From Oscillospiraceae bacterium (lineage in GTDB: Bacteria; Bacillota; Clostridia; Oscillospirales; Acutalibacteraceae): 64,000 bases of DNA. The DNA lies in assembly GCA_015065885.1 (NCBI GenBank), contig SVPJ01000006.1, positions 1-64,000 of the forward strand. Direction: 5' to 3'. A program made the position numbers and the translations under genes. Shown here in pieces: positions 34,506 to 44,635 of this stretch (its first letter is position 1; every line of letters starts with the position of its first letter). A model generated the notes under the pieces. The model had not been told where the DNA came from. It worked only from the letters and a program-made list of their open reading frames with translations, and made no database searches.

Positions 34506-34606
34506 GAAACTATCTAAAGCGTATCAGCACCGTGAGAATCATACGTGAGTGGGTGTCAGGCGACGTGTGGCGGTGTGCAGTGCGACGTGGAAAAGGAGAT
34601 GGAGCT

Positions 34607-36556
34607 ATGAAAATGAAAAAGTACTTTGTGTGGGCCTTGACGGTGGCATTACTGTTGGCAACCGTGCCGGCGGGAGTAACGTCTGTAACAGCGGAAACGG
34701 AAGGATTTTATTATACTTACGAGGTAAGCGATGGTACGGCGACAATCGTGCAGGTCGATGAATCCATTAACGGAAAAATATCCGTTCCGTCCACGCTTGG
34801 CGGGTATCCCGTAATCGGTATTGGGAACGAGGCGTTTAAAAATTGCTACTCTCTGACGGCGGTAACTTTGCCGTACGGTGTAACCGAAATTGGTGACAGA
34901 GCATTTGAAAACTGTTACTCGCTTGTAGTCGCAGAAATTCCGAGTAGCGTAACCAGTATTGGTGAGTATGCGTTTGCAGGCTGTGGCCTCACGGCGGTGA
35001 CCGTTCCCGATAGTGTAAAGACGATAGGTGCAGAAACTTTTGCTTCGTGTCATTCGCTTGAAACCGTGATTCTTGGGAATGGCATAGAGAAGTTGGAGAG
35101 ATCGGTGTTTGAAAGCTGCACGTCACTCGCTTCCGTAACGATACCGAATAGTGTTACGGAGATTGCCGACCGCGCGTTTTGGGATTGTGCTCTTACGACC
35201 ATTGTGATACCAAACAGAGTGACGTCCATTGGCGATGAAACATTTCAATGCTGCTTTTCGCTGACTTCGGTGACCATACCGGATAGCGTGACAAGTATCG
35301 GTGTGCACGCGTTTGACTCTACGGGGGTAGAAAATGACAATTCCAATTGGAGTAATAACGTGTTGTATATCAATAATCATCTGATTAAAGCTCGTAAATA
35401 TGAAACAGAGGGTATATATGCAGTAAACGCGGGCACGAAGACGATTGCCGACGCTGCTTTTGAGGGGTGTGAGTCGCTCACGGCGGTGACACTGCCCGAC
35501 AGTATTACAAGTATCGGGTGTTATGCATTTCGGTATTGTGAATCCCTGCAATCTGTGACAATACCCCATAGTGTGGTAAATATAGGAAAGGGCGCATTCA
35601 GCGATTGTACTGCGCTTCAAACGGCAACGCTGCCGTCACGGGTAACAACTATCGCCGAAGAACTATTTTCACGCTGTGTTCAACTTGAGTCGGTGACGAT
35701 GGCGGATGGCGTAACGGAGATAGGGGCGTGCGCATTTGATGCGTGTTCGGCGCTGGCAGTGTTGGAGATTCCAAGCAGTGTGAGAAAAATTGGTGAACGT
35801 GCATTTTATCGGTGCGCGGCACTCAATGAAATTACTCTTTCTGATGCGGTTACCTCTATTGGAGTAGAGGCGTTTGTGGGGACGGGGTATTTTAATCAAA
35901 GCGAGAATTGGGAAGGAAAAGTACTGTATATTGACCGCCACTTAGTTGGTGTCACGCCTGAGCTCAACGGTGAATACACGATAAAAGAAGGCACTAAGAC
36001 GATTGCAGGAGGAGCGTTCGACGGACAAGAGGGGCTTGTGTCCGTAACGATTCCCCCAAGCATAGTAACGGTGGGTGACCGTGCGTTTAAGGGATGTCAT
36101 TCACTGACCGAAGTGACGATTCCCGACGGCGTAACGACCATAGGAGAGCGTGCGTTTTTTGATTGTGCACTTGTTTTAGTGAAACTGCCGGTGTCTGTGG
36201 TCGAGATCAAGAACGAATCTTTCGATTGGTGCTTTTCGCTTACCGATGTGTACTATGCCGGATCAAAAGAAGAAGCGGAATGTATTGCTATAGGTGAGCA
36301 GAACGGAGATCTTTTTGATGCCACGTGGCATTACAACAGCGGCGCGGTGCATCTCGGAAACGTAGACGGCAACGATGGGGTAAACTCCACCGATGCGCGT
36401 TTGGTATTGCAGTATGCGGTGAAGAAGATCGATGCTGCGGCGTTGAACGTGGCGGCCGCCGACGTGGACGGCAACGGTGCGGTGGATTCCACCGACGCGC
36501 GCCTTATATTACAGTACACCGTTCGGAAAATCACCGACTTCCCTGCTTCCGCTTAA
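34607..36556 (+). CDS. Secreted BspA-type leucine-rich repeat protein with C-terminal dockerin-like module
   Basis: Signal peptide; repeated (C)xSLTxVTIPDSVTSIGxxAFxxC LRR units; C-terminus LGNVDGNDGVNSTDARLVLQYAVKKI...DVDGNGAVDSTDARLILQYTVRKI. Confidence 0.9.
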   Translation: MKMKKYFVWALTVALLLATVPAGVTSVTAETEGFYYTYEVSDGTATIVQVDESINGKISVPSTLGGYPVIGIGNEAFKNCYSLTAVTLPYGVTEIGDRAFENCYSLVVAEIPSSVTSIGEYAFAGCGLTAVTVPDSVKTIGAETFASCHSLETVILGNGIEKLERSVFESCTSLASVTIPNSVTEIADRAFWDCALTTIVIPNRVTSIGDETFQCCFSLTSVTIPDSVTSIGVHAFDSTGVENDNSNWSNNVLYINNHLIKARKYETEGIYAVNAGTKTIADAAFEGCESLTAVTLPDSITSIGCYAFRYCESLQSVTIPHSVVNIGKGAFSDCTALQTATLPSRVTTIAEELFSRCVQLESVTMADGVTEIGACAFDACSALAVLEIPSSVRKIGERAFYRCAALNEITLSDAVTSIGVEAFVGTGYFNQSENWEGKVLYIDRHLVGVTPELNGEYTIKEGTKTIAGGAFDGQEGLVSVTIPPSIVTVGDRAFKGCHSLTEVTIPDGVTTIGERAFFDCALVLVKLPVSVVEIKNESFDWCFSLTDVYYAGSKEEAECIAIGEQNGDLFDATWHYNSGAVHLGNVDGNDGVNSTDARLVLQYAVKKIDAAALNVAAADVDGNGAVDSTDARLILQYTVRKITDFPASA

Positions 36557-36668: not shown

Positions 36669-36708
36669 GACCGCCCGAAGATGGTTCCCATCTTCGGGCG
36701 GTCGTTTT
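36669..36708 (+). terminator. Strong hairpin terminator
   Basis: GACCGCCCGAAGATGG-ttc-CCATCTTCGGGCGGTC followed by GTTTT. Confidence 0.8.
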
Positions 36709-36890: not shown

Positions 36891-37448
36891 CTATCCCCGC
36901 ACCGTTTTCCCTGCGGTGCGGGCGGCGTCGAGTACCGCCGCCGAAAGCGGGGCGCGGTCGGTCGCGTCCGCGTGTACGCACACGGCGGGGGCGCTGTTTA
37001 AGACCGTCAGCGTGGGGGCGAGTTGCTTTTCCAAATACACCCCGTCCGCACGGTCGGCACCCGCGGCGGTGAGCAATATTGTCTTTTTCGGCACCGCGAT
37101 GGGCGGGCGCACCCCGCGCACGAAGCGTGTCGACCAATACCGTTGCAAGCGGTCGAGCATCGTTTTCAGCGGGGCGGGAAACGCGCGGTTATACACGGGG
37201 GTGGCGATCACCAGTACGTCCGCCGCTTCGAGTGCTTCGTAAAACGCATCCAGATCACGGTGACGGCAACCGTTCACCTCACGGCAGTAGCCGCAATCGT
37301 CGCACGGGGCGGCGGTGACGGCAAAGGCGTCGAATTGCGTGAGGGTCGCCGCTCCGATGCCGCCAAGACAAGCGGCAAGCAGGCGAGCGGTCGCACCGTC
37401 TTTATGGGGAGAGCCGAACAGCACCACAACCTGCGGCATTCCGTTCAC
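36891..37448 (-). CDS. NAD(P)H-dependent FMN reductase / flavodoxin-like protein
   Basis: VVVLFGSPHKDGATARLL; CDDCGYC; ADVLVIATPVYNRAFPAPLKTMLDRL. Confidence 0.87.
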   Translation of the reverse strand: MNGMPQVVVLFGSPHKDGATARLLAACLGGIGAATLTQFDAFAVTAAPCDDCGYCREVNGCRHRDLDAFYEALEAADVLVIATPVYNRAFPAPLKTMLDRLQRYWSTRFVRGVRPPIAVPKKTILLTAAGADRADGVYLEKQLAPTLTVLNSAPAVCVHADATDRAPLSAAVLDAARTAGKTVRG

Positions 37449-37449
37449 C

Positions 37450-40400
37450 TCATTCCCACACGGGCAGTACGATGGTGTACCGCCCGCCGTCGGTCAGCGA
37501 ATAGTAGTGGTTCAAAATCTCGCGCCAGGTCCAGCCTTCCTCGTTGGCGTAACCGATGGCACCGTATTGGCTGAGGCCCAGCCCGTGCCCGTGTCCGCGG
37601 GTGGTAAAGGTGATGCGGTCGGTCACGGCGTCATAAGAGACGGTGAAACTATGGGAGCGCAACGTGCCTGAGCCGATGGCTTTGCGGATATCGATACCGC
37701 GCAGATATACCCGCTCACCTTCATGTTCGTAATACGCATTGGTATCCACCACGTAGCCGCCCGCACCGTCGAAGGTCTTTCCGAACAGCGGGGTGTCGCC
37801 CTCTTCGAACAGCACGGTGGTTACCGCACCGTCGGTCTCCTTTGCGACGTACGCCGAAAGCAGTGCTTTCAGTTGGGTGAAGGTGAGGGAATGGGTGGCA
37901 ACGAGGTTGTCGTTGCCCGAATATTTTTGGATATAGTCTTCCGTATCGTAGCGGCTTTCGACGCTTTGCAGATACGGAAGAGCGGCGGTATACACGTGCT
38001 GGCAACTGGCGGTAGCACCGCCGGTACTGGCGGAATACATCGCGCACAGCGGCATTTTGCTCTTTACCGTCTGGGCGGTATCCGCCATCTTCACGCCGAC
38101 CACCTCGCCGACGGCATCGTACAGTTTGCGGTCGTTCGCGTCCGCAAGGTCGATACGGGAGGAGATGGAGAAGGTGCCGCCGTTCATGCAGGAATACAAC
38201 ATATACGTATAACTCGCTACCGCCTGCGCCTTTTGCGCTTCGGTGGAGTTTTGCATACTGCGGGCGGCGCCCATTTCGGTCTTCACCGCACACGCAACGG
38301 CGTATTGCAGGTCTTCCCGCGTTTGCAACGCCGTCTCCTCACCGCCCGCAATGCGCACCTTGATACCACGGAAGAACGCGGTCTCTGTGTCCGTATTCGA
38401 CGTGCCGTTCGGTGCGGTGGTCGTGGTGGTGACGGGTTCTTCGGTGGTCGTCGCGGCGGTCGTAGTGGTTACCGCCGTCGTGGTGGTGACTTCGGTCGTG
38501 GCGGTCGTTGCCGACGAGGCGGTCGTTGTCGCATCGTCCTCGGCCGAGGTGGTCGTTTCGGTTGCCACCGTGGTTGCGGTGGTGGTTGTCGTCGCAGTTT
38601 CGGCCGAGGTGGTCGTTTCGGTGGCCACCGTGGTTGCGGTGGTGGTGTTGGTTTCGGTCGCGTCGGGCACGGGCAGTTCGATATCAGGCACGATATCGCT
38701 GCTGTCGTATACCGTCGTGGTGGTCGTGGTGGTGGTCGCCGTCGTGGTCGCGTTTTTCAGCATCGCGGCGGGATACACCGTGTGCGGGTTATAGGAGATG
38801 ACCACGTCCTCGTCGGCGGATTCGCCGAGCGAGAGACGGCGTGCCGCCACGATGAGACGGATGCCTTCCGTTTTGGTTTTGGCGGAGGCGTCGGTCTCAA
38901 GCAACAGCAGGGTGTCATCCTTTTGCGGTTTCACCGAGGTGATGAACAGCGAGCGCGCCTCCAGTGCTTCGGTGAACGCCAAAAAGTCCTCGCTGCCGTC
39001 GAACGCCGTCGTGCGGTAATCGAACGACGGGTCGTTTTCATCCACGTACAGCACCGCGAACACCTGAAACGTGCCGGTGGTGTAGAGGGTGTTCATCTCC
39101 ACTGCCGTGTGGCGGAGAAGGAAGTTTGCGTCGGTGTAACGGATGAGATCGGAAAACATCTGCCCGTCCTCCGTGTTGTTGCCGTGAATGATGTACGAAC
39201 GGTTGACCGAAGTGATGGAGGATACCGCGACCGTATCGTCAAAATAGGGTACGCCGTAGTGGGACGCTTGCCCCGAAAAATCGGTCTTGGTGTAGTCGTA
39301 CAGTCCGTTTTGCATCACGGGATAACTGATGCCCGTGTCGGCAATGCGTATCCAGCCGCGGATATCGTCATTCTTCTGATACAGTGCATAAAAACGCGAC
39401 AGCATACCGCGCGGGAAATCAGCGGCATCGAAACTGCCGTCGTGTTCGCGGTCGTACAAAAGTTCCAACGATACGTACTGTTCGCGGTTTTGTGCGGGGT
39501 CGATGACGTAGGCATCGAGCAGCAGCCAGCCGCCCACGCAGAATGCGATCACCGCAAGCCACAGACATATCTTTCTTACCCACACGGCGGGGCGGTCGCC
39601 GCGCCACGGCAGAATGAAAGGCAAAAAGTGACGGCGCCCCGTGGCTTCGCCCGCGGGAATGGCGGGTGTGTGATCGATCGCTTCGAGCAGTTGACCGCCC
39701 GCCATCACGGTGGGATACGCCTCCAAATAACGGCGGGTGAGGTCGAGTGCCTGCGCGGTCGCAACGGCACGCACGGTGTCGCGGTCGACGCCCGTGGCAA
39801 GCAGTTCTTTTACCCACACGCGGCGGCTGTCCGCCAACGCGATGAACACCGTGCCGACAGGTTTTCCCTCGCTTGACGTGGGCCCCGCTTCTCCCGTAAT
39901 ACTCACGCCGAGGTCGCTGCCTCCCACGCGGCGCACACCGCATGCCATCGCGTGGGCGGTGTCTGCCGATACGGCACCTTGCGTTTCAAGGATGTCTTCG
40001 GACACGCCGAGTACGTCGTGTTTGATCTCTTTCGAATAGGCGGCGATACCGCACTCAAACACCGACGAAGCACCCGCCACTTGGGTCAGTTTACCTGAAA
40101 GCAGACCCGCAGTGCAGGATTCGGCGGTAGCGATCTTCATTTTTTTCTCTTTCAAAAGGTGAACGACTGCCGTTTGCAAGTCGTCCACGTCCACCCCGAA
40201 CACGTACGCGCCGAGCCGCTCGCACACGGCGGCAACGCACGGCTCACACAACGCGGCGGCTTCGTCCGCGGTTGCGGCGTGGGCGGTGATGCGCAACAGC
40301 ACCTCGCCGCCCGCACGGGCGGTGAGAGTCACGGCGGGGTCATCCCCTCTGAGCAGGTCGGCTACCCGTTCGTTCACCGCCGCAGAGGAAAGACCGAACA

Positions 40401-40830
40401 CGCCCACCGTGCGGGAGTAATACGCGCCGTCACCTTTTTCGCTCAAGAACGGAAGTACCGCCCGTCGAAGCAAGGGAGATAGCGTTTCTTCCGCCGCGGG
40501 AAGACACAAAAACAGTTGGGCATATTTTTCCAGTGCAAAGCCGCGAATGGCGGCGGCTTCATCGTAAAACGGCACGGCACCGCGGGGGAGGTCCTCCTCC
40601 CACGGCAGACCGAGCAGGACCGTGAGTTCCTTGTGTGCCTCTTCTGCAGCGCACAGCACCACGCAATCCGCACGGCGCATGGCACTTTGCAGTGCTTCGC
40701 GGAGCACCGCGCCCGTGGTGTCGACGTTGACGGGTGTGCCAACGGTGAGTCCGCACGCGGGCAATTCGCGCGACAAAAACGCGGTGACGGTCGACGGTAC
40801 GGCACCGACGGTAACGATCTCTGCCTTCAT
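37450..40830 (-). CDS. CinA-like / TM / degenerate class B sortase-like / Thr-rich linker / SpoIID-LytB fusion, 1126 aa
   Basis: CinA-C motif IATAESCTAGLLSGKLTQVAGASSVFECGIAAYSKEIK...GVSITGEAGPTSSEGKPVGTVFIAL; TM KICLWLAVIAFCVGGWLLLDAYVI; SrtB-like SYIIHGNNTEDGQMFSDLIRYTD; Thr-rich linker; SpoIID motifs (AVKTEMG...EAQKAQAVASYTYML, RGHGHGLGLSQYGAIGYA). Confidence 0.87.
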   Translation of the reverse strand: MKAEIVTVGAVPSTVTAFLSRELPACGLTVGTPVNVDTTGAVLREALQSAMRRADCVVLCAAEEAHKELTVLLGLPWEEDLPRGAVPFYDEAAAIRGFALEKYAQLFLCLPAAEETLSPLLRRAVLPFLSEKGDGAYYSRTVGVFGLSSAAVNERVADLLRGDDPAVTLTARAGGEVLLRITAHAATADEAAALCEPCVAAVCERLGAYVFGVDVDDLQTAVVHLLKEKKMKIATAESCTAGLLSGKLTQVAGASSVFECGIAAYSKEIKHDVLGVSEDILETQGAVSADTAHAMACGVRRVGGSDLGVSITGEAGPTSSEGKPVGTVFIALADSRRVWVKELLATGVDRDTVRAVATAQALDLTRRYLEAYPTVMAGGQLLEAIDHTPAIPAGEATGRRHFLPFILPWRGDRPAVWVRKICLWLAVIAFCVGGWLLLDAYVIDPAQNREQYVSLELLYDREHDGSFDAADFPRGMLSRFYALYQKNDDIRGWIRIADTGISYPVMQNGLYDYTKTDFSGQASHYGVPYFDDTVAVSSITSVNRSYIIHGNNTEDGQMFSDLIRYTDANFLLRHTAVEMNTLYTTGTFQVFAVLYVDENDPSFDYRTTAFDGSEDFLAFTEALEARSLFITSVKPQKDDTLLLLETDASAKTKTEGIRLIVAARRLSLGESADEDVVISYNPHTVYPAAMLKNATTTATTTTTTTTVYDSSDIVPDIELPVPDATETNTTTATTVATETTTSAETATTTTTATTVATETTTSAEDDATTTASSATTATTEVTTTTAVTTTTAATTTEEPVTTTTTAPNGTSNTDTETAFFRGIKVRIAGGEETALQTREDLQYAVACAVKTEMGAARSMQNSTEAQKAQAVASYTYMLYSCMNGGTFSISSRIDLADANDRKLYDAVGEVVGVKMADTAQTVKSKMPLCAMYSASTGGATASCQHVYTAALPYLQSVESRYDTEDYIQKYSGNDNLVATHSLTFTQLKALLSAYVAKETDGAVTTVLFEEGDTPLFGKTFDGAGGYVVDTNAYYEHEGERVYLRGIDIRKAIGSGTLRSHSFTVSYDAVTDRITFTTRGHGHGLGLSQYGAIGYANEEGWTWREILNHYYSLTDGGRYTIVLPVWE
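38541..38646 (-). repeat. 60-bp-period direct repeat encoding part of the Thr-rich linker
   Basis: cggccgaggtggtcgtttcggt(t/g)gccaccgtggttgcggtggtggt at 38541 and 38601. Confidence 0.8.
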
Positions 40831-40851: not shown

Positions 40852-42048
40852 TTACACTTCGTCGTCCGCGGCATCCACCGTGATACGGCGCATACCGGCA
40901 ATGGCTTCTTCGATCCATTCCTCCACGGGCAAACAGCGTTCCGCTTCTTCCAGCATCGCCACGGTCGGGCGGGTGCGGGGATGCCGCGGGGTGAACACCG
41001 TACAGCAATCTTCGTACGGCTGAATGGAAATATCAAAGGTGTCGATACGGCGGGCAATGCGGATGATCTCCTCTTTATCCATACCGATCACGGGACGGAA
41101 CACGGGAACGGTACACACCGCGTCGGTCACGGCAAGGGCTTGTGCCGTTTGACTTGCGACCTGCCCCAAACTCTCGCCCGTGATGAGCGAATGGCAGCCG
41201 TCCGCCACCGCCACCCGTTCGGCGATACGCATCATAAAACGGCGCATCAACAGAGTGAACAGTTCTTCGGGACAGCGGCGGCTGATCTCTTCTTGAATTT
41301 TTGTAAACGGGACGATATTTACCGAAATGCGTCCCGCGTAGTTCGCGACTTTGCCGAGCAGGGAGAGTACTTTCATTTCGGCGCGCTCACTGGTGTACGG
41401 CGGGGAGGCAAAGTGGACAGCGGTCAACTGCAGGCCGCGCTTCGCCATCATATACGCCGCAACGGGAGAGTCGATGCCGCCCGAAATGAGCAAGCCCGAA
41501 CGGCCCGCCGTGCCCACGGGCATACCGCCTGCACCCGGCAACTGCGCCGCGTGGATGTACGCACCGAAATCGCGGATCTCCACCATAATGAGCAGTTCGG
41601 GATCGCGCACGTCCACTTTCAAGTGGGGGAACTGCGCGAGTACCGCACCGCCCACTTCCGCACAGATAGCAGGAGAGCCGAGCGGGAAGGTTTTGTCGCT
41701 GCGCTTGGCTTCCACCTTAAAGGTCTTGGCGGTGCGCAGTTGGTCGGCGAGGTAGCGCGGGGCTTCTTCGCAGATCACGGTAATGTCTTTTGCCACCACC
41801 CGCGCGCGGGAGAAGGCGGAAATGCCGAACACGTGTGCCACGCGGTCGGCGGCGGTGTCAAGGTCGATGCCGTCCGCTTGCGGTTCGATATAGATGGTGG
41901 ATTGCGCGCGACGGATCTGGAATGAGCCGAGCGGGCGCAGACGGCGGCGGATATTCTTCACCAGCACGTCTTCAAAACTGCTGCGGTTTAAGCCCTTCAG
42001 CGCCAACTCACCGTTTTTGATAAGCAGAATTTCTTCGGGTATGTACAT
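40852..42048 (-). CDS. thiI: tRNA 4-thiouridine synthetase ThiI
   Basis: EILLIKNGELALKGLNRSSFE; THUMP region; SGGIDSPVAAYMMAKRG; GESLGQVASQTAQ. Confidence 0.94.
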   Translation of the reverse strand: MYIPEEILLIKNGELALKGLNRSSFEDVLVKNIRRRLRPLGSFQIRRAQSTIYIEPQADGIDLDTAADRVAHVFGISAFSRARVVAKDITVICEEAPRYLADQLRTAKTFKVEAKRSDKTFPLGSPAICAEVGGAVLAQFPHLKVDVRDPELLIMVEIRDFGAYIHAAQLPGAGGMPVGTAGRSGLLISGGIDSPVAAYMMAKRGLQLTAVHFASPPYTSERAEMKVLSLLGKVANYAGRISVNIVPFTKIQEEISRRCPEELFTLLMRRFMMRIAERVAVADGCHSLITGESLGQVASQTAQALAVTDAVCTVPVFRPVIGMDKEEIIRIARRIDTFDISIQPYEDCCTVFTPRHPRTRPTVAMLEEAERCLPVEEWIEEAIAGMRRITVDAADDEV

Positions 42049-42061
42049 GGTCGTATCTCCT

Positions 42062-43456
42062 TTAGGGTGTTGCCGCCTTTGCGGTCGTCGTGGTCGTAGT
42101 CGCAGGCTTTGCGGTCGTCGTGGTTACGGTGACTTGCGCGGTCGTTGCGGTCGTCGTCACCCGGGCGGTCGTGGTCGTACCCTTACCCGTCGTGGTGGTC
42201 ACCCCTTTTTGGGTGGTGGTTACAGCACCTTTGGCAGTCGTGGTGGTCGCACCTTTTTTGGTAGTGGTCGTAGCACCTTTCTTGGTGGTGGTCGTAGCAC
42301 CTTTTTTGGTGGTGGTCGCGGAAGTCGTTTCGCTCTTGCCGTACACGCTGTGCGGTGTCTTCTTCTGCGCGGTGTACCAGCGATAGGGCATAATGACATC
42401 CTTGTTCGTTGTGACGTTGGCAGACACGGTGGCCGTCTCTCCCGGACGCACTTTGCGGGCAACGACCGCCAAACGGGCGTCGTCAAAATGAGCAATGCTC
42501 TTGGGGGTGCAGGTGTAGAGAATGAGCAACTCGTCGCTCGCCTTCACGTCCACGTCGTTGAAATCGTACAGCGAGCGGTCCCGTAAGCCGTTTACGTATT
42601 TCATAAACTGGTCGTGATTTGTAAACGAGGTCTCCTGAATGGAGTAGTAGTGTTCGACCTTCGATTTGGAGTCCTGCATCACCACCGCAAAGATCTTGTA
42701 TTGCGAGGTGTAAAACAGCGTATCCAACGTGATGATCTGGTTGGCACTTTTCATATACGCCAGCGAATTTGCGAGGTTGTTGAGTTTCGCAAACATCTGA
42801 CCGCTCGCCATATTGTGACCGTAGATCACGAGACTTTTGGAGGACGCCGTGGGGGTATCCAGTTTGTTTTTGGCGTCAAAGAACAGCGCGCCGTTCTTGT
42901 TTTTGTTTTTGTAGAAATCGTGGGTGAGATAGTAGTCGTTGTCGTTGCTGTGCATCACTTCACGGTCGATACCGCAGGCGGAATATTTCAGCCAGCCGCG
43001 AATATCGCTGTTCAGGTAATACAGCGTTTTCAGATCGTCCTGAATGCCCGCGGGATAGCCGTCCCATTGTTGAGCTTCCGCGGTCAGTTCGGCGTCCTGC
43101 TTGCCGTAGCGGATATTGGTCAACTCTTCCGCGAGCGCGGTGTTCTGTTGCGGAATGATGAACGATTCGTTCACCAGCACGGCGGTGGTGCCGATGAACA
43201 CGAGCAGGGAGAGAAGCAACAGCAGTTTACGGGCGATCTCACGGATGGGATCGTCGTGATACGGAATGAACGCCGCGAGCGGGCGACGGCGACGGCGGCG
43301 CTTTTGCGGAGGTGCTTTTTCCGCCAACGTCGAAAGCGAGACGGTGTCCTGCTTTTGCAGGTTTTCCACGAACGCCAACGCTTCGTCCAATTCGGCGTCG
43401 GCAACGGTCGGGATACTGTCTAAAAACTCTTGTTCACGGTCAGACATAGGTTGCAT
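42062..43456 (-). CDS. Class B sortase with repetitive Thr-rich C-terminal tail
   Basis: Basic cytoplasmic region then TM; LVIYGHNMASGQMF; catalytic LLILYTCTPKSIAHFDDARLAVVARK; tail with KKGATTTT repeats. Confidence 0.9.
   Translation of the reverse strand: MQPMSDREQEFLDSIPTVADAELDEALAFVENLQKQDTVSLSTLAEKAPPQKRRRRRRPLAAFIPYHDDPIREIARKLLLLLSLLVFIGTTAVLVNESFIIPQQNTALAEELTNIRYGKQDAELTAEAQQWDGYPAGIQDDLKTLYYLNSDIRGWLKYSACGIDREVMHSNDNDYYLTHDFYKNKNKNGALFFDAKNKLDTPTASSKSLVIYGHNMASGQMFAKLNNLANSLAYMKSANQIITLDTLFYTSQYKIFAVVMQDSKSKVEHYYSIQETSFTNHDQFMKYVNGLRDRSLYDFNDVDVKASDELLILYTCTPKSIAHFDDARLAVVARKVRPGETATVSANVTTNKDVIMPYRWYTAQKKTPHSVYGKSETTSATTTKKGATTTTKKGATTTTKKGATTTTAKGAVTTTQKGVTTTTGKGTTTTARVTTTATTAQVTVTTTTAKPATTTTTTAKAATP
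42220..42320 (-). repeat. 24-bp-period tandem repeat encoding KKGATTTT units
   Basis: Reiterated gtggtggtcgtagcacctttcttg-type units. Confidence 0.8.
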
Positions 43457-43465
43457 CCCCTTTCA

Positions 43466-44635
43466 TTAGCGGTTTGGACGGCGGAACGCCGCCACGCGGG
43501 TGAGGGTATCCACCGCTTCCCGCATCGCCGCCAAAAAGCGGTCGATATCGTCTTCAGTGGTGGTGTGGCAAAAACTGATACGCAAGGCACTGTCGATCTC
43601 CGCCGCGGGGAGCCGTAACGCCTGCAAAACGGAACTGTGCTTCCCCTTCGAGCAGGCGGACCCGCTTGAAACAAACACGTCGCGCTCCGCCAAAAAATGC
43701 AACAGCGTTTCACTGCGCAGACCGGGGAAGGAGACGTTCACAATGTACGGTACGTGCGATTTCGGCAGATGCAGCCGCGCTTCGGGGAAGGCGGACAGCC
43801 CCGAAGTCAAGCGGTCGCACAACGCGGTGTAGCGCGCGTGTGTGTCGCCCATCGGGGGGAGCGCAGTCACCGCCGCACCGAAGGCGGCAATGGCGGGCGC
43901 GGCTTCGGTGCCCGCACGCAGCGTCCGTTCCTGCTCGCCGCCCAGTGCGCGGGGCAACACCCGCACGCCGCGGCGTATGTACAAAGCGCCCACCCCTTTG
44001 GGTGCGTGCAGTTTGTGACCGCTCACAGTCAAAAGATCCACGCTCCACTTTTGCGCTTTGATGGGGAGTTTTCCCGCGGCTTGTACCGCGTCAGTGTGAA
44101 ACAGCGCGCGGGGGGCGATGCGTTTGACGGCGGGGGCGATCTCTTCCACGGCGAAGCGTGCCCCCGTTTCGTTGTTCACCGTCATCACGCTGACAAGCGC
44201 GGTATCGTTGCGGCAGACAGCGGCGACCGCTTCGGGGGTGATGTTGCCGTCTTCGTCAGGTAAAAGGCGGGTGACTTCCCACCCCTGCTTTTCCAATTCA
44301 TCAAACGCGGCAGCGACGCTCGCGTGTTCCATTGCGGTGGTGACGGCGTGTTTTCCCACACGGAAATTGGCGGCAGCACCGCCCAAAACCGCGAGATTGT
44401 TTGCCTCCGTCCCGCCCGAGGTGAAGACAAGGTCTTCCGCGGGCACGCCGATCAAAGCGGCGACCGCACGGCGGGCGGCGGTAAGTTCGCGTTCCGCCGC
44501 AATGCCCGCCGTATGCAGGGAGGAGGGGTTGCCGAACGCCTCGGTCATCATATACAACGCCTTGTCCGCCGCCGCTTGGCAAACGGCAGTGGTGGCGGCG
44601 TTATCCAAATAGGTCGTAAAGATCCCTCCTTCCAA
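43466..44635 (-). CDS. Cysteine desulfurase (NifS/IscS family)
   Basis: YLDNAATTAVCQ, GGTEANNLAVLG, FHTDAVQAAGKLP, VSGHKLHAPKGVGALYIRRG, SSGSACSKGKHS. Confidence 0.93.
   Translation of the reverse strand: MEGGIFTTYLDNAATTAVCQAAADKALYMMTEAFGNPSSLHTAGIAAERELTAARRAVAALIGVPAEDLVFTSGGTEANNLAVLGGAAANFRVGKHAVTTAMEHASVAAAFDELEKQGWEVTRLLPDEDGNITPEAVAAVCRNDTALVSVMTVNNETGARFAVEEIAPAVKRIAPRALFHTDAVQAAGKLPIKAQKWSVDLLTVSGHKLHAPKGVGALYIRRGVRVLPRALGGEQERTLRAGTEAAPAIAAFGAAVTALPPMGDTHARYTALCDRLTSGLSAFPEARLHLPKSHVPYIVNVSFPGLRSETLLHFLAERDVFVSSGSACSKGKHSSVLQALRLPAAEIDSALRISFCHTTTEDDIDRFLAAMREAVDTLTRVAAFRRPNR

Follow-up and report, generated by a model that had tools for sequence, protein, structure and literature searches.

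A class B sortase domain lacking its catalytic His and Cys, fused to CinA and SpoIID domains in Clostridia

Pseudoenzymes paired with active paralogues are a known general kind of protein, in which the active site has been lost and the fold kept. Among the sortases, the closest described relatives of the domain reported here are the class B enzymes (SrtB), which are recognized as enzymes by a His-Cys-Arg triad and a sorting-signal groove. The roles of the groove residues have been described (PMC5118464, PMC11987632): L106 (baSrtB numbering) contacts the signal (PMC11987632), and the catalytic Arg together with nearby residues positions it (PMC11987632). SpoIID represents a second relevant system, in which E101 of the Clostridioides difficile protein is required for glycan cleavage and SpoIIP must first remove the stem peptides (PMC6221140). 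The two systems have been linked in Clostridium acetobutylicum, where a SpoIID-like protein is named as a predicted sortase substrate in the passage of PMC4877998 that cites an earlier prediction.

Architecture of the fusion gene and its operon

The window analyzed here is a 64-kb stretch of DNA from an Oscillospiraceae bacterium, and one of its genes joins both systems on a single polypeptide:

37450..40830 (-): fusion gene, 1126 aa, reading degenerate MoCF, CinA_KH, PncC (CinA C-terminal), transmembrane helix, pseudo-sortase B, Thr-rich linker, SpoIID/LytB
40426..40830 (-): degenerate MoCF (CinA N-terminal) domain, residues 1-135
40189..40425 (-): CinA KH domain, residues 136-214 (PF18146, E 2.9e-15)
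39715..40188 (-): PncC/CinA C-terminal domain, residues 215-372 (PF02464, E 6.1e-50)
39508..39570 (-): single predicted transmembrane helix, residues 421-441 (hydropathy maximum)
38815..39444 (-): pseudo-sortase B domain, residues 463-672
38386..38751 (-): Thr-rich linker (49% Thr), predicted disordered, residues 694-815
37453..38385 (-): SpoIID/LytB domain (lytic transglycosylase fold), residues 816-1126 (TIGR02669, E 2.2e-28)
38275..38277 (-): Glu852, at the catalytic Glu position of SpoIID by family motif and alignment, conserved in 49/49 relatives

Pfam and NCBIfam matches were placed at residues 139-212 (CinA_KH), 217-369 (CinA C-terminal/PncC), 421-661 (class B sortase) and 848-1111 (SpoIID/LytB). 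The same continuous frame occurs in a sister species (G001, locus L034) and 14 further genomes, and the full CinA-Srt-SpoIID fusion is also present in Clostridia and Clostridiales metagenome-assembled genomes (MAGs; L075-L080). Basic residues preceding the transmembrane helix suggest an N-in, C-out orientation, which would leave the CinA/PncC part in the cytoplasm and hold the sortase fold and SpoIID domain outside the membrane.

The PncC domain scores 169.3 bits against PF02464 (cut-off 23.5), which places it within the CinA/PncC amidase family. It was the sole CinA-family domain found in the genome (a single genome match), so the fusion polypeptide would also carry that cytoplasmic function. 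The protein does not qualify as a full two-domain CinA enzyme with an intact, GGLGPTxDD-bearing MoCF domain, as approximately 35 aa have been deleted from its MoCF domain, which has neither the GTELLLGDI loop nor the GGLGPTxDD motif. Both elements are deleted in the source genome and the sister species, and MoCF is intact in L035, L036 and others with the same fusion. The polypeptide thus carries two degenerate domains, MoCF and the pseudo-sortase.

At the other end of the protein, the SpoIID domain scores 99.9 bits against TIGR02669 (cut-off 83.3) and matches the SpoIID structure 5i1t at E 3.3e-14 by sequence and E 5.1e-13 by Foldseek. Motif and alignment put Glu852 at the position of E101 of C. 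difficile SpoIID (PMC6221140), and the domain is predicted to cut glycan strands. The genome also encodes Spo0A and a separate SpoIID-family gene (C36, 342 aa), so the sporulation role has candidates besides the fused domain.

The fusion gene lies in an operon with the following neighbors:

43466..44635 (-): iscS/nifS-type cysteine desulfurase, conserved neighbor in relatives (PF00266, E 2.5e-74)
42062..43456 (-): intact class B sortase (His/Cys/Arg) with a Thr-rich tail, same operon
40852..42048 (-): thiI, conserved neighbor in relatives (PF02568, E 2e-67)
36891..37448 (-): FMN reductase-like gene immediately downstream, probably closing the operon (PF03358, E 1.7e-20)
36669..36703 (-): terminator-like 16-bp stem-loop after the FMN reductase-like gene (consensus match only)

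The repetitive tail of the intact SrtB (42062..42360, (-), 46% Thr) resembles the linker of the fusion protein. An intact SrtB is encoded in 40/40 loci carrying iscS together with thiI; seven loci without one miss iscS, thiI or both, consistent with contig truncation. A pattern search for sorting signals across the 64-kb window and loci L034-L073 returned none. Candidate substrates of the operon SrtB were also sought using Gram_pos_anchor, which retrieved only LPxTG-type proteins beside two other sortases on contig C31 and no evident SrtB substrate. Those two sortases and their LPETG/LPESG-type surface proteins form a pilus-like cluster (G000, contig C31, 16866-21095; L001, L002, L217, L221). 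Elsewhere in the window, 34532..36556 (+) encodes a BspA-type leucine-rich-repeat protein; its C-terminal dockerin, of type I, hints at a cellulosome-like surface complex in this organism.

Catalytic residues, fold and sorting-signal groove

The sortase domain was matched to Bacillus anthracis SrtB (2oqw) with E-values of 1.2e-18 (phmmer) and 1.7e-46 (profile), and to the operon sortase with 26% identity (BLASTP E 4e-20). TIGR03064, the NCBIfam class B sortase model, was detected in the fusion protein at E 5.9e-28 and in the operon sortase at E 3.4e-36, both below the equivalog cut-off, and a search with Pfam PF04203 did not detect the dead domain. An AlphaFold2 model built from 49 sequences has a pLDDT of 93.7 and a pTM of 0.91 for the pseudo-sortase. 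Most of the Thr-rich linker is predicted with a pLDDT below 50. Foldseek ranked SrtB structures first for the sortase model (S. aureus SrtB 4lfd, E 3.0e-19, TM ~0.76). By homology and fold the domain belongs with the class B sortases, whereas the two features of the enzyme, the triad and the sorting-signal groove, are not preserved. The triad positions are as follows:

39178..39180 (-): Asn551, codon AAC, at the catalytic His position
38890..38892 (-): Asp647, codon GAC, at the catalytic Cys position
38857..38859 (-): Arg658, retained at the catalytic Arg position (alignment to SrtB)

A first-pass annotation of this DNA had proposed that Asn and Asp replace the catalytic His and Cys. Both codons were read directly, and alignments to 2oqw and to the operon sortase agree on the two substitutions. 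The same annotation described the Arg as retained, which is correct for Arg658 in this protein but does not extend to the clade: the equivalent Arg243 (baSrtB numbering) is kept in 20/24 members of the subclade in which the dead sortase is fused to CinA, and in few members of the other subclade. There is no Cys within residues 432-846 of the fusion protein, and thus no substitute thiol, and no conserved Cys column exists across the dead clade. The structural model shows a confident SrtB fold and offers no thiol elsewhere; no other residue was found that could stand in for the catalytic Cys or His. H549 (IIHGNN) was considered as a catalytic His and rejected, as it aligns with the Tyr of the YGH motif, a position where most dead-clade relatives have Tyr or Phe. 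That the sortase domain of 37450..40830 has lost transpeptidase activity, as the annotation had held, is strongly supported by these comparisons: both catalytic residues are gone, no Cys could take over, and in none of the dead-clade members is the His or the Cys intact.

An enzyme that remains active through an atypical nucleophile or another kind of chemistry is very improbable. Strong conservation of the fold and an Asn at the His position in 35/50 dead domains would suit such an enzyme. The Cys position varies with no consensus (D, N, P, E, T, S, K, Y, Q or G), and neither a conserved Cys nor a common replacement for the catalytic pair is present, which argues against it.

In order to assess selection on the fold, the source genome was compared with the sister species, whose pseudo-sortase is 85% identical. 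The dN/dS values were 0.076 for the pseudo-sortase, 0.074 for the intact SrtB, 0.053 for PncC, 0.092 for SpoIID and 0.28 for the linker, all approximate, as they derive from one species pair with a high dS (~1.2). Positions of the fold core are equally or more conserved in 50 dead domains than in 97 active ones (L483, G492, P504, G526 and F610 reach 1.00 in the dead set), and conservation drops at the His, Cys and Arg positions and at one Leu and one Asp close to the active site. The domain is not a decaying copy but a predicted fold maintained by purifying selection. As the genomes are draft assemblies and many of them are MAGs, a degrading pseudogene or an assembly artefact behind the fusion and substitutions has to be considered. 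This explanation can hardly be credited given the open frame of 1126 codons, the low dN/dS, the recurrence of fusion and substitutions in the sister species and of the fusion in 14 further genomes, and a single clade of 50 loci.

The groove has been altered together with the triad. The L106 equivalent is hydrophobic in 96/97 active domains and is mostly R, K, E, A or another polar or small residue in the dead clade, where N102 (S. aureus Asn92 by alignment), I192 (Ile182) and S231 (all baSrtB numbering) are also altered. These changes indicate that the canonical signal site is gone, and they argue against the capture of sorting signals; canonical signal binding by the pseudo-sortase appears unlikely. 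Capture of uncut signals, by which surface proteins would be held for the intact SrtB or contested with it, does draw on the retention of Arg in the CinA-fused subclade, where the Thr before the lost Cys is also mostly kept, and on the positioning role of Arg and its neighbors in known SrtB (PMC11987632). The replacement of the four groove residues, often by charged ones, and the loss of Arg from most of the other subclade make this reading improbable, and the sorting signal, which had been put forward as one possible binding partner, is accordingly disfavored.

Origin and distribution of the dead clade

The locus order in the window's family is iscS - (srtB) - thiI - cinA - srtB - SpoIID, and these genes are fused in various ways. 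Sortase domains were aligned across 101 loci. Neither His nor Cys is present in any CinA-Srt-SpoIID protein (n = 16) or Srt-SpoIID protein (n = 24), such that both are missing from 40/40 SpoIID-fused sortase domains of this family. The residues are intact in 34 of 43 CinA-Srt proteins, and four of the nine others end at a contig edge, so that a SpoIID part may follow; 63 of 71 free-standing sortases are intact. When a tree of 36 rows was constructed without the His, Cys and Arg columns, the dead domains tested fell on one side of one branch (support 99/94), and a larger, quick tree grouped 50 dead domains from 50 loci of one family (SH-aLRT 95). On these trees the dead sortases are one old clade, with the loss of His and Cys placed in an ancestor within the window's family. 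Beyond the main dead clade, His and/or Cys have also been lost in L038, L043, L048, L052, L060, L205 and L263; in L038 (G028) the affected copy lies between iscS and thiI.

The clade comprises two subclades. In the one that includes the window, the gene for an intact SrtB separates iscS from thiI, and the dead domain follows CinA on one polypeptide (19 loci in which the intact gene is visible). The second subclade mostly joins CinA to an intact SrtB (22 loci) and has the dead sortase together with SpoIID in the gene that comes next. The N-termini of these Srt-SpoIID proteins (L042:6970-7449, L169:5162-5641 and others) are a remnant of CinA MoCF without KH and PncC (hhalign probability 98.9). 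A reading of these MoCF matches as low-complexity noise was dismissed on the hhalign result. The remnant suggests that both fusion types may descend from a duplicated CinA-Srt unit.

In other families of the order, SrtB and a separate SpoIID gene are adjacent in the same iscS-thiI-cinA locus; in one such family the locus has one to four SrtB genes. The sortase-SpoIID link is thus older or wider than the fusion, and its occurrence beyond the dead clade supports a functional tie between anchoring and wall cutting. Two loci of the latter family, L255 (G560) and L261 (G647), encode SpoIID-fused SrtB with His, Cys and Arg intact. Orthologues with intact His and Cys, which would have spoken against the annotation, are absent from the dead clade; these two fusions fall outside it and apparently arose independently. 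A rule that fusion to SpoIID always kills the sortase, which would fit 40/40 proteins of the window's family, is refuted by these intact triads, which indicate that fusion alone does not require catalytic loss.

A proposed docking role and comparison with known systems

We favor, with a probability of about one half, a pseudo-sortase that has no catalytic part and serves to dock or position a membrane-anchored SpoIID-type wall enzyme, perhaps at the intact SrtB. On this reading, the sortase fold, after both catalytic residues had been lost in an ancestor within the family, was kept under purifying selection inside a membrane protein whose extracellular output would be a peptidoglycan lytic domain. 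The pseudo-sortase would neither cleave nor anchor sorting signals. It would instead bring lytic activity to the site where intact SrtB anchors proteins, by docking to SrtB or to the substrate on which SrtB draws, the wall or a lipid precursor, and surface-protein anchoring would thereby be coupled to local opening of the wall. The paralogous sortase and peptidoglycan had both been suggested as partners, and the constant pairing with intact SrtB and the fusion to SpoIID fit either. The pairing is confined to one locus, so linkage of the genes may account for it without a physical partnership; the intact triads of L255 and L261 and the flexible Thr-rich linker between pseudo-sortase and SpoIID also count against docking. 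A stronger version, in which intact SrtB and its dead paralogue with the lytic transglycosylase form a complex that anchors proteins at wall openings, with a cytoplasmic NAD-salvage enzyme attached, is a tentative proposal. Less likely than docking is a partnerless spacer or regulatory lid, in which the sortase fold sets the distance of SpoIID from the membrane or keeps SpoIID off. The conserved core with its released active site, the long disordered linker and the SpoIID fusion, more constant in the clade than any other feature, agree with a spacer or lid, but a 210-residue enzyme fold at a dN/dS of 0.076 exceeds the needs of a spacer, and an intact SrtB is always present.

The docking role would matter beyond this locus. 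A sortase fold free of catalysis has been kept family-wide, always next to an active SrtB and in most cases joined to a wall-lytic domain, and this suggests a separable binding role. The lineage offers a direct handle on how gut Clostridia, some of them with dockerin/cohesin surface complexes, coordinate surface-protein anchoring with wall remodeling. Its strict pairing with SrtB and the fusion to CinA are oddities that can be tested.

Compared with class B sortases (SrtB; TIGR03064, peptidase C60B; 2oqw, 4lfd, 5b23), the pseudo-sortase has the same fold at ~25% identity and is likewise predicted to be membrane-anchored with an extracellular sortase domain; unlike them, it has no catalytic His or Cys, has an eroded groove and is embedded in a larger fusion. 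With the SpoIID lytic transglycosylases (5i1t, 4rwr; TIGR02669) the C-terminal domain has the catalytic Glu position and the GHGxGxSQxGA motif in common, but it is joined to a pseudo-sortase and CinA. The CinA/PncC nicotinamide-nucleotide amidases share the KH and PncC domains, and NMN deamidation in the cytoplasm is a likely activity of the fusion protein, which differs in its added membrane and extracellular part and in a MoCF half that is degenerate in this genus. The C. acetobutylicum SpoIID-like protein, as presented in the cited passage, is also linked to a sortase, but as a candidate substrate, whereas SpoIID is here fused to a dead sortase. Neither a catalytically dead sortase lineage nor a sortase-SpoIID fusion was found in the openly searchable literature (subscription papers were outside its scope). 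Within that literature, and as far as we searched, a pseudoenzyme with an active paralogue is new for sortases; the pseudo-sortase and the intact SrtB share with other such pairs the loss of one active site, the kept fold and the active paralogue.
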